Assembly (NCBI GenBank): GCA_017525915.1
Contig: JAFXSC010000008.1
Location: forward strand, 81,046-145,045
Direction of reading: 5' to 3'
DNA: 64,000 nucleotides
Source of the DNA: Ruminococcus sp.
Lineage (GTDB): Bacteria > Bacillota > Clostridia > Oscillospirales > Ruminococcaceae
In this document: one piece after another, positions 685 through 5,319 of the stretch
How the letters are laid out: every line of letters begins with the position of its first letter
Position numbering within the stretch: the stretch's first letter is position 1
Position numbers and translations under genes: made by a program
The notes under the pieces: model-generated
Databases searched by the model: none
What the model saw: only the letters and a program-made list of their open reading frames with translations
What the model was told of the DNA's origin: nothing

Positions 685-1577
685 CGTCCGTCCCTCCCTC
701 TGCGTCCGGAAACCGCGAACATTATCCCGACTATCGCCGATATCATCGCAAAGAGCACCCACGATACAGCGTTGGCATAGCCTGCATTCATATCGTAGCG
801 GAACATCTCATCGTATATCAGCATACCCACGGTATAAGTGCTTTTGAGGGGACCGCCTCCGGTCAGCATATAGGGAGCGTTGAACTCCTGCAAAGCCGCT
901 ATGGTCTGCAATATGAGGTTGACGAATATCACGCCCCTGAGCTGGGGAAGAGTTACCGAGAAGAAGGTGCGTACCCTACCGCAGCCGTCAACTTTTGCTG
1001 CATCGCAGAGGTCACGGGGGATATCCCTGAGTGCCGCGAGGAATATGACCATAGTCGAGCCGAATTCCCACAGGCGCAGGAGTATTATCACGAACAGAGC
1101 CCTGTCAGGGTCGCCGTACCAGCTTACCGGCGATGCACCCATCAGGTCGAGCAACTGGTTGACCAGTCCGCCGGAGGTGAACAGGTAGTTCCACATTATG
1201 ACGACGGCAAGGTTAGCACCGAGCACGGAGGGGATATACAGAGCAGTCCGGTAGAAGCCTATGCCCCGTATCTCAGCATTCAGCAGGAGGGCGGTCAGCA
1301 GGGAGACTGTGAGCTTCAGCGGAACGAGTATCGCCGCATATCTGAGCGTGACAGTGAGGGACTTCCGGAAGGTCCTGTCGCGGAACATCGTCCTGTAATT
1401 CTCCAGACCGACGAACTTAGCCGGGCGTATGCCGTCGTATTCCGTGAGCCCTACCGCGAACGAGCACACGAAGGGATAGAGGGTGAACAGCAGGAAGCCT
1501 GCTATGAACGGCAGTATCAGCAGCAGACCGGTATACCGGCTCACACCGACCGGATTGCCGTAAGTACGTTTCTTCAT
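681..1577 (-). CDS. Carbohydrate ABC transporter permease, MalF type
   Basis: Partner permease of the sugar importer, 298 residues, the usual length for the short MalF/UgpA-like class. The N-terminal helix (about residues 17-40) follows a short basic cytoplasmic start. The EAA loop DLCDAAKVDGCG lies near residues 189-200, followed by the expected hydrophobic helices and a basic C-terminus (GRRGRDGR). It is the middle gene of three: its start overlaps the stop of the binding-protein gene as ATGA, and its own stop overlaps the next permease start. The order binding protein, MalF-like, MalG-like is canonical for the CUT1 sugar transporters. Substrate is unknown. Confidence 0.92.
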   Translation of the reverse strand: MKKRTYGNPVGVSRYTGLLLILPFIAGFLLFTLYPFVCSFAVGLTEYDGIRPAKFVGLENYRTMFRDRTFRKSLTVTLRYAAILVPLKLTVSLLTALLLNAEIRGIGFYRTALYIPSVLGANLAVVIMWNYLFTSGGLVNQLLDLMGASPVSWYGDPDRALFVIILLRLWEFGSTMVIFLAALRDIPRDLCDAAKVDGCGRVRTFFSVTLPQLRGVIFVNLILQTIAALQEFNAPYMLTGGGPLKSTYTVGMLIYDEMFRYDMNAGYANAVSWVLFAMISAIVGIMFAVSGRRGRDGR

Positions 1578-2884
1578 TTTCTGATCTTCTCCAGATAATC
1601 TGATAAGGAGGAATAGAGCTCACTTGCCGCAGAGGGGATATCCTGAGTGCCGTAGGAGACGTTTTCGAGGGCGGTATTGCAGTATTCCCTTACCCTTGCA
1701 AGCTCGGCGTAGGGACTTACCGTAATGGTGTCAAGGCTGCCGAGGAGCTCATTGCTGTCCTGTGCAGGACCTCTGAGCATACCTTTTTCTTCAAGGCGTC
1801 CGAGGGCATAGCGCGAGGAGGGGATACCCCTTGTTGTACCGAGTATCTCCGCGCAGTCGCCGTTATTGAGGAGGAAGTCCACGAAAGCCGCAGCCTCATC
1901 CGGGTGGTCGGTATTGCGTGATACCGCGTAGAGCATCGAGGGCTTTGTCATCCAGCCGGAGGTATTTCCGCTGCCGTCGCCGAGGAAGGGACCAGCCTGC
2001 AATACACCTTCGGGAAGAACAGCTTCGTACTTGCCGACAGAGCTTCCCCATTCGAGAACACCTGCGATAGTGCCGTTTATGAACTCAGGGGACTGGTATA
2101 GTGCAGCGTTGCCGTCCTCATCGGTGCGCGTGCGTATAGTGCGGATAACACGGCTGTCCTCGAGGCGCTTGTAGAAGGTCAGCGCGTCCGTGATATCCTG
2201 TTCGGTGAAGCCGAGCTCACCGTCCATATTGATGAAAACTCTGCCTGTTTTCTGCTGGACATAGACAACTGCAAGGTACCATGCCGTGCCGCCCGACTGG
2301 ATATCAAGGTCGAGGGGATAGAGTCCCTTTTCGCTGAATGTCTCACCGAGCGCGAGAAGCTCCTCCCATGTGCAGGGATAGTCCGCACCGACCTTTTTGT
2401 AGATACCGGAATTGTAGAACAGACCGCGTCCTGTTACCGAAACGGCAACAGCATTGAGCTTGCCGCCGACCGTACCGAAGGAGAGGATATCCTCGTCCAT
2501 ACCTGAGAGGTCGAGCTGACCTGTGAGCTGCCGGAGGTCATAGAAGCCTTCGCCGTCGGGGGACATGGTGACGAGCCAGTCGTAGTTTATCTGGAGGATA
2601 TCGGGCTCACTGCCGCTGCTCATCTGAGCGGTGACCTTTTCGTTCCAGCCGTCCCAGCCGCCGTATTCGGGGGTTATGCGGATATCGGGGTGAATGCTCT
2701 CCCAGAGGGAAATGGCACTGAGGGTAGCCTCGTGGCGGTCGTCGCCTCCCCACCATGAGAAGCGGAGGGTACACGCATCGAGGGAGTTGTCCGGCGGAGT
2801 AACGGTACCCTTTGTACCGCTGCCGCAGGCAGAGAGGGTCAAGGCGCAGCACAGTCCGGCTGCTCTGAGAATATCGAGCTTCAT
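1574..2884 (-). CDS. Extracellular sugar-binding lipoprotein of ABC importer
   Basis: Solute-binding protein (family 1) that captures the sugar outside the membrane and delivers it to the two permeases. The 436-residue product starts MKLDILRAAGLCC and has a lipobox LSAC with the lipidated cysteine at residue 20, so it is predicted to be membrane-anchored. The mature part has the usual features of these proteins (RFSWWGGDDRHEATL near the start, a conserved SWWGG-like strand, about 410 residues). ATG at 2884 was chosen over an upstream in-frame ATG at 2935 because GGAGGGCGG lies just before it and the promoter -10 box sits upstream, at 2918-2923. First gene of the importer operon. Confidence 0.93.
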   Translation of the reverse strand: MKLDILRAAGLCCALTLSACGSGTKGTVTPPDNSLDACTLRFSWWGGDDRHEATLSAISLWESIHPDIRITPEYGGWDGWNEKVTAQMSSGSEPDILQINYDWLVTMSPDGEGFYDLRQLTGQLDLSGMDEDILSFGTVGGKLNAVAVSVTGRGLFYNSGIYKKVGADYPCTWEELLALGETFSEKGLYPLDLDIQSGGTAWYLAVVYVQQKTGRVFINMDGELGFTEQDITDALTFYKRLEDSRVIRTIRTRTDEDGNAALYQSPEFINGTIAGVLEWGSSVGKYEAVLPEGVLQAGPFLGDGSGNTSGWMTKPSMLYAVSRNTDHPDEAAAFVDFLLNNGDCAEILGTTRGIPSSRYALGRLEEKGMLRGPAQDSNELLGSLDTITVSPYAELARVREYCNTALENVSYGTQDIPSAASELYSSLSDYLEKIRK

Positions 2885-2917
2885 TCTCCGCCCTCCAATA
2901 AATATAATGATACATAT

Positions 2918-2946
2918 ATTATAGCCGATTATCACCGATACGTCAA
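2918..2946 (-). promoter_or_regulatory. Promoter of the sugar importer operon
   Basis: On the minus strand TTGACG (2941-2946), a 17-base spacer and TATAAT (2918-2923), placed about 35 bases before the ATG of the binding-protein gene. A vegetative sigma-A promoter by consensus. No operator palindrome was recognised next to it. Confidence 0.75.
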
Positions 2947-2962
2947 TAGTGTGCGCCTTTTA

Positions 2963-3038
2963 TGCCTTCTCAGTTATGAGCACTGTTCACTGCTCACTAA
3001 GTGAAAACATGAAAACATGAAAAGATGAAAACATGAAA
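2963..3038 (+). repeat. Left arm of 76-bp inverted repeat around lone ATPase gene
   Basis: Starts TGCCTTCTCAG, contains GAGCACTGTTCACTGCTCAC and ends in four and a half tandem copies of an octamer close to TGAAAACA. The reverse complement of 4114-4189 matches it with about five mismatches by hand alignment. Confidence 0.9.
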
Positions 3039-3152
3039 TCTTCCACCGCTGGTGTATTATTTGCGGTATTCAACGGAAAGACATTGAAAGACCTCCGTTT
3101 TCTGCCCTTTTACAGGAACACGTTCCCAAATAATCTTACGGAGGTACTGAAA

Positions 3153-4106
3153 ATGAGTGCTGTAAAAAACATCCACACAATATCCGAGGTCATGGGATGC
3201 GAGACCGAATGGCTCTGGTATCCCTACATCGCCTACGGCAAGGTGACTATCATCATGGGTGACCCCGGCGAGGGAAAAACTACCCTTGCGCTGAATATCG
3301 CCGCCGCTGTTTCTTCCGGAAAAGCCTTCTGGAAGGAGGAGGGCATTCCGGTGAGCGATGTTGTTTTCCAGACCGCAGAGGACGGTCTTTCGGATACGGT
3401 CAAACCGAGGCTTCTCGCTGCCGGTGCGGACTGTAACCGCGTTTTCTTCTACGACGACAGCGAGGATATCATCACGTTTACGGACGAAAGGATACCCGAG
3501 ATACTTTCCTTCACAGGGTGCAGACTTATGATATTTGACCCGCTGCAAGCATTTCTGGGTCAGGGAGTAGATATGCACAGGGCTAACGAGATACGTCCGG
3601 TAATGTCCCGGCTCGCTTCACTTGCCGCTGAATTCAACTGTGCGATAGTCCTTATCGGACACATGAACAAGAACATGACTGCAAAGGCGGCTTACCGTGC
3701 AGTCGGTTCCATAGACCTCACAGCAGCAGCAAGAAGCGTTCTCATAGTCGCAAGGGACAAGTCTGCGCCGGAGGTCAGGGTGATCTCACAGATAAAAAGC
3801 TCCCTTGCACCGGAGGGAAAAAACGTTGCGTTCCGGCTGTCCGAAGACAACGGTCTCAGCTATATAGGCGAATATGAGAGCGATATAGACGAGCTTCTTC
3901 TCGGTATCGGGTCAGCTCCCACCAAGCGTGACCTTGCGAAGGAGTTCCTCATGTCCGAGCTCGGGAACGGTCAGCCGAAGCTTGCAAAGCTTATTACGGA
4001 TAAGGCTGCCGCACTGGATATCAGCAGCAGTTCTTTAAGCCGTGCGAAGTCTCAGCTCGGAGTGAAGTCATTCAAGAAGGATAATGTGTGGTTCGTGCAG
4101 ATATGA
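3153..4106 (+). CDS. RecA/RepA-like AAA_25 ATPase with C-terminal winged helix
   Basis: A 317-residue ATPase of the AAA_25 / RepA-helicase-like branch of the RecA fold. Walker A GDPGEGKT is at residues 36-43 and Walker B LMIFD near 125-129; a further conserved segment IVLIGHMNK follows. The last 55 residues look like a winged-helix DNA-binding end (SSSLSRAKSQLGV), an arrangement common in phage, plasmid and integrated-element proteins. Family members unwind or remodel DNA at replication or recombination sites; the exact role here is unknown. ATG at 3153 is preferred because ACGGAGGT lies nine bases upstream; an in-frame ATG at 3033 would start inside the left repeat arm. It stands alone, with no partner primase or recombinase, and is enclosed by an inverted repeat. 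Confidence 0.8.
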   Translation: MSAVKNIHTISEVMGCETEWLWYPYIAYGKVTIIMGDPGEGKTTLALNIAAAVSSGKAFWKEEGIPVSDVVFQTAEDGLSDTVKPRLLAAGADCNRVFFYDDSEDIITFTDERIPEILSFTGCRLMIFDPLQAFLGQGVDMHRANEIRPVMSRLASLAAEFNCAIVLIGHMNKNMTAKAAYRAVGSIDLTAAARSVLIVARDKSAPEVRVISQIKSSLAPEGKNVAFRLSEDNGLSYIGEYESDIDELLLGIGSAPTKRDLAKEFLMSELGNGQPKLAKLITDKAAALDISSSSLSRAKSQLGVKSFKKDNVWFVQI

Positions 4107-4113
4107 GCCGGGT

Positions 4114-4189
4114 TTTCAAGTTTTCAAGTTTTCATGTTTTCATGTTTTCACTTAGTGAGCAGTGAACAGTGCTCTGAACTGAGAAGGCA
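4114..4189 (-). repeat. Right arm of 76-bp inverted repeat around lone ATPase gene
   Basis: Inverted copy of 2963-3038. The inner end is again built of octamers (TTTTCAAG, TTTTCATG) and the outer end reads CTGAGAAGGCA on the plus strand. It begins eight bases after the ATPase stop codon. Confidence 0.9.
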
Positions 4190-4192
4190 GAA

Positions 4193-4219
4193 AGCAAAAA
4201 GGGCGCCCAGATGGCGCCC
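4193..4219 (-). terminator. Rho-independent terminator of dgt-dnaG-rpoD operon
   Basis: On the minus strand a GGGCGCC / GGCGCCC stem with a five-base loop is followed by TTTTT, 18 bases after the rpoD stop. Confidence 0.85.
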
Positions 4220-4236
4220 CTGCTTATGTCATTATA

Positions 4237-5319
4237 TCAGTCGAGGAAGTCCTTGACCTTCTTGCTTCTGCTCGGGTGACGGAGCTTTCTCAGAGCCTTC
4301 GCCTCTATCTGGCGTATACGCTCACGGGTAACGTCAAAGCGCTGTCCTACCTCCTCAAGCGTTCTGGACTTGCCGTCCTCAAGACCGAAGCGGAGCTTCA
4401 GTACCTTTGCTTCACGCTCGGTAAGAGTTGAAAGCACCTCGTTGAGCTGCTCCTTCAGGAGAGTATGCGAAGCTGCTTCAGCAGGCGCAGGAGCATCGTC
4501 ATCGGGAATGAAATCGCCGAGGTGACTGTCCTCCTCCTCACCGATAGGAGTTTCGAGGGACACAGGGTCCTGAGCGACACGCATTATCTCGCGCACCTTA
4601 TCCTCCGGCATATTGAGCTTTTCTGCGATCTCCTCCGGGCTCGGGTCGTGACCGTTCTCGTGGAGGAGCTGGCTCGATACCTTCTTGACCTTGGTGATAG
4701 TCTCGACCATGTGGACAGGGATACGGATAGTTCTTGCCTGATCGGCGATAGCACGGGTTATAGCCTGTCTTATCCACCATGTGGCGTAGGTGGAGAACTT
4801 GAAGCCCTTGGTGTAGTCGAACTTCTCAACTGCCTTGATAAGACCGAGGTTTCCCTCCTGGATGAGGTCGAGGAACTGCATACCCCTTCCGACGTACTTC
4901 TTTGCGATAGACACAACAAGACGGAGGTTGGCTTCGGAGAGACGCTTCTTCGCGTAGGGGTCGCCCTTAGCCATTCTCTGGGCAAGCTCTATCTCCTCCT
5001 CGGTGGTGAGAAGCGGCACTCTTCCTATTTCCTTGAGGTATATCTTGACCGGGTCGTCGATAGCGATACCCTCGGTAGAGAGAGCCATTTCGAGGTCATC
5101 GGTGAGGTTGGAGTCCATGCCTATCTTGAGGTCGGCATCAATGTTCATATCCTCGACTATCTCGATATTGAGGTTCTCGCAGTCGTCATAGAAGGTATTT
5201 ATCTGGTCTACGTCAAAGTCGAGCTGTTCGAGGGCATCGGTTATCTCCTTTGTGGTGAGTTTTCCGCTTGCCTTTCCATGCTCCATGAGCGCGTCTATGG
5301 TATTTCTCCTGTTTTCCAT
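4237..5319 (-). CDS. rpoD: Primary RNA polymerase sigma factor RpoD/SigA
   Basis: Housekeeping sigma factor that directs RNA polymerase to TTGACA/TATAAT promoters, the type seen throughout this window. The 360 residues show, in order, an acidic region 1.1, region 1.2 ([17 protein letters not shown]), region 2 with the RpoD box ([20 protein letters not shown]-like, here [12 protein letters not shown]) and the aromatic melting segment ([13 protein letters not shown]), region 3, and region 4 with its helix-turn-helix ([17 protein letters not shown]). The length is that of Firmicutes SigA. The gene is last in dgt-dnaG-rpoD, 14 bases after dnaG, and is followed by a strong terminator. Confidence 0.97.

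Follow-up and report, generated by a model that had tools for sequence, protein, structure and literature searches.

A RepA-type ATPase gene between inverted hairpin repeats in Ruminococcus, a candidate small mobile repeat system

REPs with their tyrosine transposases are, to our knowledge, the one known case of a single chromosomal gene bound to its own dispersed hairpins. REPs are characterised as palindromes of 20-40 bp. The lone gene of the REP/RAYT system is flanked by two inverted hairpin repeats of lineage- and copy-specific type, the cognate repeats are dispersed singly and as inverted pairs, and gene and repeat co-evolve (PMC2817692, PMC8266576), with usually more than 100 REPs per genome (PMC2817692). 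An arrangement of similar build is found in the genus Ruminococcus, where an ATPase gene lies between inverted hairpin repeats in seven of 14 lone copies, own-type repeats are dispersed elsewhere, singly and in pairs, in nine of 13 genomes, arm types are largely lineage- and copy-specific, and gene and repeat appear to change together. On the other hand, the gene encodes a RecA-fold ATPase with a winged helix where REP/RAYT has a Y1 HUH nuclease, the repeats are about 80-120 nt long with octamer arrays instead of being short palindromes, and 1-16 arms were counted per genome as compared with the far more numerous REPs. Searches of open-licence literature brought up no earlier description of such an ATPase-linked repeat system. 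We see about an even chance (roughly 0.5) that the 1.23-kb unit described below belongs to a small mobile repeat system, of which it would be one copy, consisting of a RepA-type ATPase gene and two inverted cognate hairpin repeats. If so, it would be a second system of this kind on an unrelated, replicative-type ATPase, and the arrangement would arise independently.

The window, the whole stretch of 64,000 nucleotides that was analysed, is situated on contig C22 of the source genome, Ruminococcus sp. GCA_017525915.1 (G, L and C label genomes, loci and contigs, respectively). BLAST of positions 1000-5300 against the sister species G082, together with reading, delimits an interval of 1302 bp (2933-4234) between a solute-binding-protein gene and rpoD, a sigma-70 gene, both neighbours being recognised by Pfam. 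Within this interval, the initial annotation had described an arm pair at 2963-3038 and 4114-4189 with about five mismatches in 76 bases; the count is exactly five, and a repeat search of the window extends the inverted repeat to 80 nt with 93% complementarity (left arm 2959-3038, forward strand; right arm 4114-4193, reverse strand, starting 7 nt past the stop codon of the enclosed gene). The arm pair scores 62; every other inverted repeat of the 64 kb whose arms are 150-3000 bp apart stays below a score of 20. The core GAGCACTGTTCACTGCTCAC, near-palindromic and claimed for each arm, is present exactly in both (2978-2997, forward, and 4155-4174, reverse); with up to three mismatches, it occurs at two sites in the window, both in the arms, and in none of 100 dinucleotide shuffles. 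Equally, the octamer runs claimed for the inner end of the arms could be located there, as an array (TGAAAACA)n at 3002-3033 (forward) in the left arm and as TTTTCAAG/TTTTCATG in the right arm (lag 8, 23/24). The left arm continues inward into the motif TCTTCCACCGCTGGTGTATTATTTGCGG (3039-3066, forward). Octamer array and inner part recur in both arms around the folC gene on contig C32 of the same genome, one of which matches window positions 3002-3066 (C22:84047-84111) at 92%, so that the arms are not exclusive to the ATPase gene.

The start of the enclosed gene is most likely at 3153, after the ribosome-binding site, rather than at the ATG 3033 inside the arm. Its 5' leader (3067-3152, forward) carries a remnant of a CAACGG..CCGTTG palindrome, as judged by eye against the leaders of lone relatives, followed by the ribosome-binding site GGAGG, and the reading frame (3153-4106, forward) encodes a RecA-fold ATPase of RepA/DnaB type with 317 aa. 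The proposal of a single AAA_25/RepA-like ATPase with a DNA-binding end has been borne out by a Pfam match to AAA_25 (9e-25), by the relationship to RepA and by a predicted winged helix. Only AAA_25 and DnaB_C exceed the Pfam cut-off, with the transposition ATPase TniB at 15.7 bits staying below its cut-off of 22.4, and the RecA fold with Walker A (GDPGEGKT, 3258-3281, forward) and Walker B is seen by Pfam, by structure comparison and in the model. The protein is predicted to end in a C-terminal winged helix (residues about 258-316; 3924-4100, forward) from the reading of helices and strands in an AlphaFold2 model with a pLDDT of 85-94 by blocks over residues 261-317; in the identity tables, this domain is fast-diverging among lone copies. 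In contrast to the dead replication relic considered initially, the P-loop, as GDPG(E/D)GKT, and a Walker B-like motif are preserved in 14 of 14 lone copies and a GHMNK motif in 13 of 14, and eight pairwise dN/dS values among lone copies range from 0.12 to 0.43, which indicates that the lone ATPase gene is intact and under purifying selection.

The plasmid RSF1010 has RepB/RepC and an iteron origin, the IncQ replicon being composed of initiator, primase and iteron origin. The best solved-structure relative of the window ATPase is the replicative helicase RepA of RSF1010, tied with DnaB, and the octamers resemble iterons; furthermore, at locus L012, outside the lone clade, the ATPase gene is followed by genes for HTH_17, a CHC2 zinc-finger (DnaG-type) protein and a tyrosine integrase (Pfam). 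These features would accord with a minimal chromosomal replicon or replication relic, the hairpins of which serve as origin or primosome-assembly sites and which is excised or copied as a small circle. However, the window ATPase possesses a C-terminal winged helix in addition to what RSF1010 RepA has, the lone unit comes without primase, initiator or any second gene among its open reading frames, and replication alone does not explain dispersed solo arms, which renders this explanation distinctly unlikely. The AAA_25 ATPases outside the lone clade, direct relatives with about 48-58% identity, may be element-borne if L012 is taken as the example for the others. In comparison, by Pfam, with L012, the lone form has no adjacent HTH_17, CHC2 protein or integrase, resides among chromosomal genes and has its hairpins multiplied and inverted. 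More distantly, ATPase relatives of less than 60% identity occur in 59 phage and 16 plasmid records, with unannotated small phage-collection records of about 50% identity as the best matches, and IMG/VR contains five loci with relatives at 47-52% identity.

Relatives of the ATPase at E<=1e-85 are present in 16 of 125 genomes of the genus. Thirteen genomes carry 14 lone copies, with two in G425, and in G477, G494 and G478 a gene resembling, by eye, the HTH_17 gene of L012 follows the ATPase. The lone copies group on the tree with a support of 93/84, just missing the star level of the tool (95/80); tree and identity tables omit six rows (four duplicates, L071 and L025), and L082 is not part of alignment A1 owing to a stop within its stretch. 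About ten different places are occupied by the lone copies, among which those of the R. flavefaciens group are related to one another, with sigma-70, solute-binding and phosphotransacetylase genes as neighbours by Pfam and argF, purA and others by eye. A 3' octamer or hairpin repeat is seen by eye beside 14 of 14 lone ATPases, with 8 as the best repeat lag in ten. Enclosing inverted hairpin arms are restricted to the seven copies of the source genome, G004, G503, G425 (both), G497 and G504; six further copies possess the 3' hairpin alone, and the copy of G019 combines a 3' hairpin with a generic inverted repeat. Each of the two refuting observations named in the initial annotation was made by half: six copies have the gene without enclosing arms, and arms occur at other genes such as folC, yet they also bound the gene in the seven enclosed copies. 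One ATPase gene without a transposase is found between the arms in the window unit, L221, L222, L226, L231 and L232. In G497, the two arms are of unlike type and the flanking sequence beyond them is itself inverted-repeated; at L226, this outer inverted repeat (2477-2596 and 3889-4008) is nearly identical on both sides, with inner arms of types d and e. The 106-bp inverted repeat of 98% identity at the L003 ATPase (G019, R. flavefaciens ATCC 19208) was considered as an arm pair and dismissed, since it matches the ATPase-free genomes G074, G476 and G482 as well as 20 rows of G019, two of them at the ATPase. This generic 106-nt intergenic repeat family of R. flavefaciens is found at L003 4559-4903 and 6179-6365.

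A hairpin of the same octamer build is associated with the ATPase gene beyond the lone form. The signature CTTG-N4-CTTG occurs on either strand within 200 nt after the stop codon of 51 of 83 ATPase genes as compared with seven of 494 other, mechanically defined open reading frames of the same loci, and upstream in three of 83 versus nine of 494; spacings of 5 to 13 other than 8 yield 0 to 3 of the 83 ATPase genes. The downstream occurrences split into 48 of 69 genes outside the lone clade, which are not independent events as near-duplicates are frequent among the loci (13 within L003-L082), and three of 14 lone genes. In the relatives outside the clade, a stem is formed by CAAG-N4 paired with CTTG-N4, with pairing in 89.6% of cells (21 of 30 listed hairpins). 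Both-side changes are observed in six of 17 pairs, a count reached by 168 of 500 shuffles. Stem covariation amounts to 0.246 as compared with 0.02-0.08 with a slid partner, and no shuffle out of 500 reaches the score; the slid control is the better one, as related rows may beat shuffles without structure. The hairpin predates the lone form or is at least more widely distributed.

Linkage of gene and hairpin becomes most apparent at the phosphotransacetylase locus common to L006 and L009. Nucleotide identity between the two is 93-100% per stretch of about 60 columns from L006 4499 to 5744 and 94-100% after about 6073, whereas in between (L006 5745-6073), at the gene end and the hairpin, it declines to 0.39-0.77. 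On the protein level, identity is 100% in the core columns (window residues 19-240) as compared with 46% in those of the winged helix (257-317); the two hairpins each pair within themselves. The alignment indicates that winged helix and hairpin are replaced as one block between L009, which comes from an isolate, and L006, from a metagenome bin in which a bin error is possible; a search among the lone copies revealed no close donor of the block. More generally, lone pairs with at least 90% identity in the core retain 46-70% in the winged helix, as compared with 73-100% for pairs outside the lone clade, L021/L024 being the exception (core 87%, winged helix 55%) and the pairs of the identity tables being related to one another. 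In these comparisons, arms and ATPase have the appearance of a cognate pair; arms have, besides, spread without the gene. The almost identical loci L006 and L009, which differ chiefly in DNA-binding domain and hairpin, constitute a natural swap experiment.

With respect to movement, solute-binding-protein gene and rpoD are separated by 84 bp in the sister species G082 as compared with the 1302 bp of the source genome, a short empty interval of the kind that the initial annotation had proposed to look for; at E<=1e-4, the own-type arm is absent from G082. The 12 other genomes with lone copies carry the ATPase beside other genes, which makes insertion the simpler direction at the rpoD locus. A target duplication, likewise among the proposed checks, was not seen by eye at the window unit, L219 or L221, and the G082 spacer is so diverged that exact borders and target duplication are illegible there. 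Also in G082, on contig C13 (L251 1-2180), an apparent remnant of an integrative element with integrase-like and CHC2-like fragments (by eye) adjoins, in this ATPase-free genome, a hairpin resembling the type c arm of G425. Locus L219 of G425 is an internally deleted copy of the ATPase unit of L221; identity amounts to 94-95% at either end and 91% in a central segment, and homology does not continue beyond the outer arm ends. This deletion derivative, which starts and ends with the arms, and the empty interval of G082 bear out the notion of a discrete unit with its own termini. In G497, loci L223 and L225 share 89% identity across a non-coding interior of 229 bp. Loci L003 (G019) and L005 (G526) have collinear flanks with 83-92% identity over about 8 kb, with the ATPase, 79% identical, in opposite direction (L003 4396-6378 versus L005 3873-5420), an inversion as would be expected from recombination between inverted repeats.

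Arm types are for the most part specific to a lineage, and even to a gene copy. The two ATPase copies of G425 differ in their arms, and either type recurs at other places. With at most one mismatch, the inner-end motif TTTTRTGCAAAAAGAAGA has 13 occurrences in G425 and 14 in G497; of the 123 other genomes, 12 contain it a single time, which is about the level of the reversed control. A search with 19 joined arms against 25 genomes, which sees only the arm types put in, identified own-type arms away from the ATPase in nine of the 13 lone-ATPase genomes after sorting of the matches by arm type by the author, namely in the source genome, G532, G526, G007, G004, G503, G425, G497 and G504, with mainly octamer arrays in G007 and G004. 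The same search found no own-type arm away from the ATPase in G019, G065, G068 and G483, which contain at most other types. Several types cross species, with the G532 type in G068, G483 and G065, the G065 type in G526, the G483 type in G065 and G019 and the G007 type in G019. Twelve genomes without the gene at 1e-85 produced nine arm matches, seven of them to the generic G019 repeat, a weak control as arm types differ between lineages and other types are missed. A query with the folC arm gave weak matches of 30-37 nt at 86-90% in three of 59 other genomes (G002, G019 and G026), of which G002 and G026 are without the gene at 1e-85.

The geometry of the arms was assessed from 73 of the 114 rows of the joined-arm search (74 arms, one row being split), taking the ATPase arms of the respective type as the reference for orientation; the 41 dropped rows comprise 22 of G019 (20 generic, two of other types), nine of ATPase-free genomes, three on the opposite strand, which are palindromic arms in G425, and seven partial or other-type rows (G504 three; G000, G007, G068 and G483 one each). 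Among 30 neighbouring arm pairs less than 6 kb apart, 18 are inward-facing, 12 are direct and none faces outward; when the seven ATPase pairs are set aside, 11 inward-facing and no outward-facing pairs are left. Enclosed by two inward-facing own-type arms is the folC gene of the source genome (L101 4902-6435, contig C32), named by the author upon Mur-ligase domains recognised by Pfam and flanked by two dockerin glycosidase genes (by eye). Further inward pairs enclose an aminotransferase class V gene (L233), at L237 a protein of 375 aa to which Pfam gives no match, an Xre-like gene with a 101-aa open reading frame (L220), the ATPase deletion copy of L219 and, at L218 6156-7186 and L224 85-1223, an orthologous 178-aa gene after argF, also without Pfam match, which has 90% nucleotide identity between G425 and G497 and arms of different type in the two genomes; L223, L225, L234 and L241 enclose no clear gene. 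Transposition of folC as cargo was considered and rejected, as the folC of G082 lies beside the same mannanase-like glycosidase gene without arms; folC being at its ancestral place, the arms arrived there without moving the gene.

This inward orientation bears on the possibility that the arms are hairpins acting in mRNA or as terminators, with the ATPase performing an ordinary cell function and inverted pairs being by-products of intergenic repeats. The hairpin of relatives outside the lone group is located past the stop codon of the ATPase and ahead of the ribosome-binding site of the next gene and so could act in mRNA, and the downstream folding z-score, calculated with RNA energies and, like the ungapped inverted-repeat score, a simple measure, is below -3 in nine of 14 lone as compared with three of 17 other copies. 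The window copy (z of -1.57), L004, L156 and L186 do not stand out; L156 and L186, unremarkable in folding and lag tests, yet have arms. Against this reading, same-type arms at other loci face inward around genes by 11 to 0, repeats with an enclosing score of at least 28 surround four of ten lone ATPases (the window, L003 with its generic repeat, L063 and L081) versus one of 372 other genes across loci L003-L082, L149 and the window, and Rfam at gathering score matched no family in window 2800-4400 or six loci. That the arms are mRNA or terminator hairpins beside an ordinary ATPase is rather improbable.

Enclosure of folC, of the aminotransferase, 375-aa, 178-aa and Xre-like genes, of the deletion copy and of four gene-poor stretches can also be seen in another light, namely as the work of a transposase or recombinase not linked to the unit, from the host or some other element, which moves the arms of a non-autonomous element with terminal inverted repeats, with the ATPase as a passenger or regulator. 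The unit lacks a cutting enzyme of its own, as such an element would, and inverted termini, a deletion derivative that keeps both ends at L219 and an empty site in a relative are shared with MITEs and insertion sequences. It differs from those in that the units seen have no transposase, that no target duplication was seen at the three loci read by eye and that arms occur also singly and vary between species. Moreover, all 14 lone ATPases adjoin, by eye, an octamer or hairpin repeat at arm counts of 1-16 per genome, the block change between L006 and L009 affected winged helix and hairpin jointly, and a same-build hairpin is found downstream of the gene in numerous relatives beyond the lone group; a non-autonomous element of this kind appears unlikely on these grounds. 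As to a known enzyme, the Y1 transposase domain PF01797 was not found at E<=1e-3 in nine of 13 lone-ATPase genomes, including the 99.9% complete source genome, and was found in G019, G425, G497 and G504. A tyrosine-transposase (RAYT) explanation has no support in the source genome, which has an AAA_25 gene between the arms and no PF01797 at that threshold; with the defining enzyme absent between the arms, the unit would work like a REP/RAYT system without being one.

For the mobile repeat system of ATPase and cognate hairpins, a sequence of events can be envisaged in which the winged helix would recognise the octamers once the hairpin is folded, the ATPase ring would load at the hairpin and open the DNA, and host replication and recombination would copy the arm, or arm, gene and arm, to new intergenic places. 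Such a copy or template-switch route would not require a transposase in the unit itself, and the arms would be both recognition site and movable unit, as REPs are for the tyrosine transposase. That the ATPase drives mobility is what we infer from the combined observations. Comparison of the genomes shows a difference at the site relative to the sister species, most simply an insertion, duplication of the unit, a deletion derivative, inversion, arm dispersal, inward pairing, linkage of hairpin and gene and their joint replacement; in favour of a mobile pair we count the G082 gap, the dispersed arms and inward pairs, the L219 copy, the L003/L005 inversion, the gene-linked hairpin with covariation, the block swap of L006/L009, purifying selection and the absence of a Y1 transposase hit in nine of 13 genomes. 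Counted against it are the six lone copies with the 3' hairpin alone, CTTG-N4-CTTG in just three of 14 lone copies, weak arm-like matches in gene-free genomes (two non-generic rows; G002 and G026), the lack of a visible target duplication, the few arms per genome, the winged-helix divergence of L021/L024, folC arms that came without gene movement and a possible mRNA role of the hairpin. The unit encodes neither nuclease nor recombinase, so that cutting and joining have to be supplied by the host or by another element. This missing step restrains our confidence to even odds for a working pair, and the boldest form falls short even of that: tentatively, the unit might represent a class of transposase-free mobile DNA, with ring ATPase and cognate hairpin as a selfish pair, winged helix and hairpin as a swappable specificity module, and copying, driven by the ATPase through host replication and recombination, that spreads, inward-pairs and rewrites the arms. 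If true, the ATPase-hairpin system would provide a way in which DNA can be moved that does without a transposase.

Some minor observations concern the surroundings of the arms. The purA gene adjoins an arm in both G503 and G504 (L231, L235/L239), in G504 together with the ATPase unit. Several contigs end in or shortly past arms, namely C91 of G504, C48 and C124 of G503 and C57 of G497. Equally, two tandem hairpins of the G532 type in the same orientation are found at L242 2776-3032.
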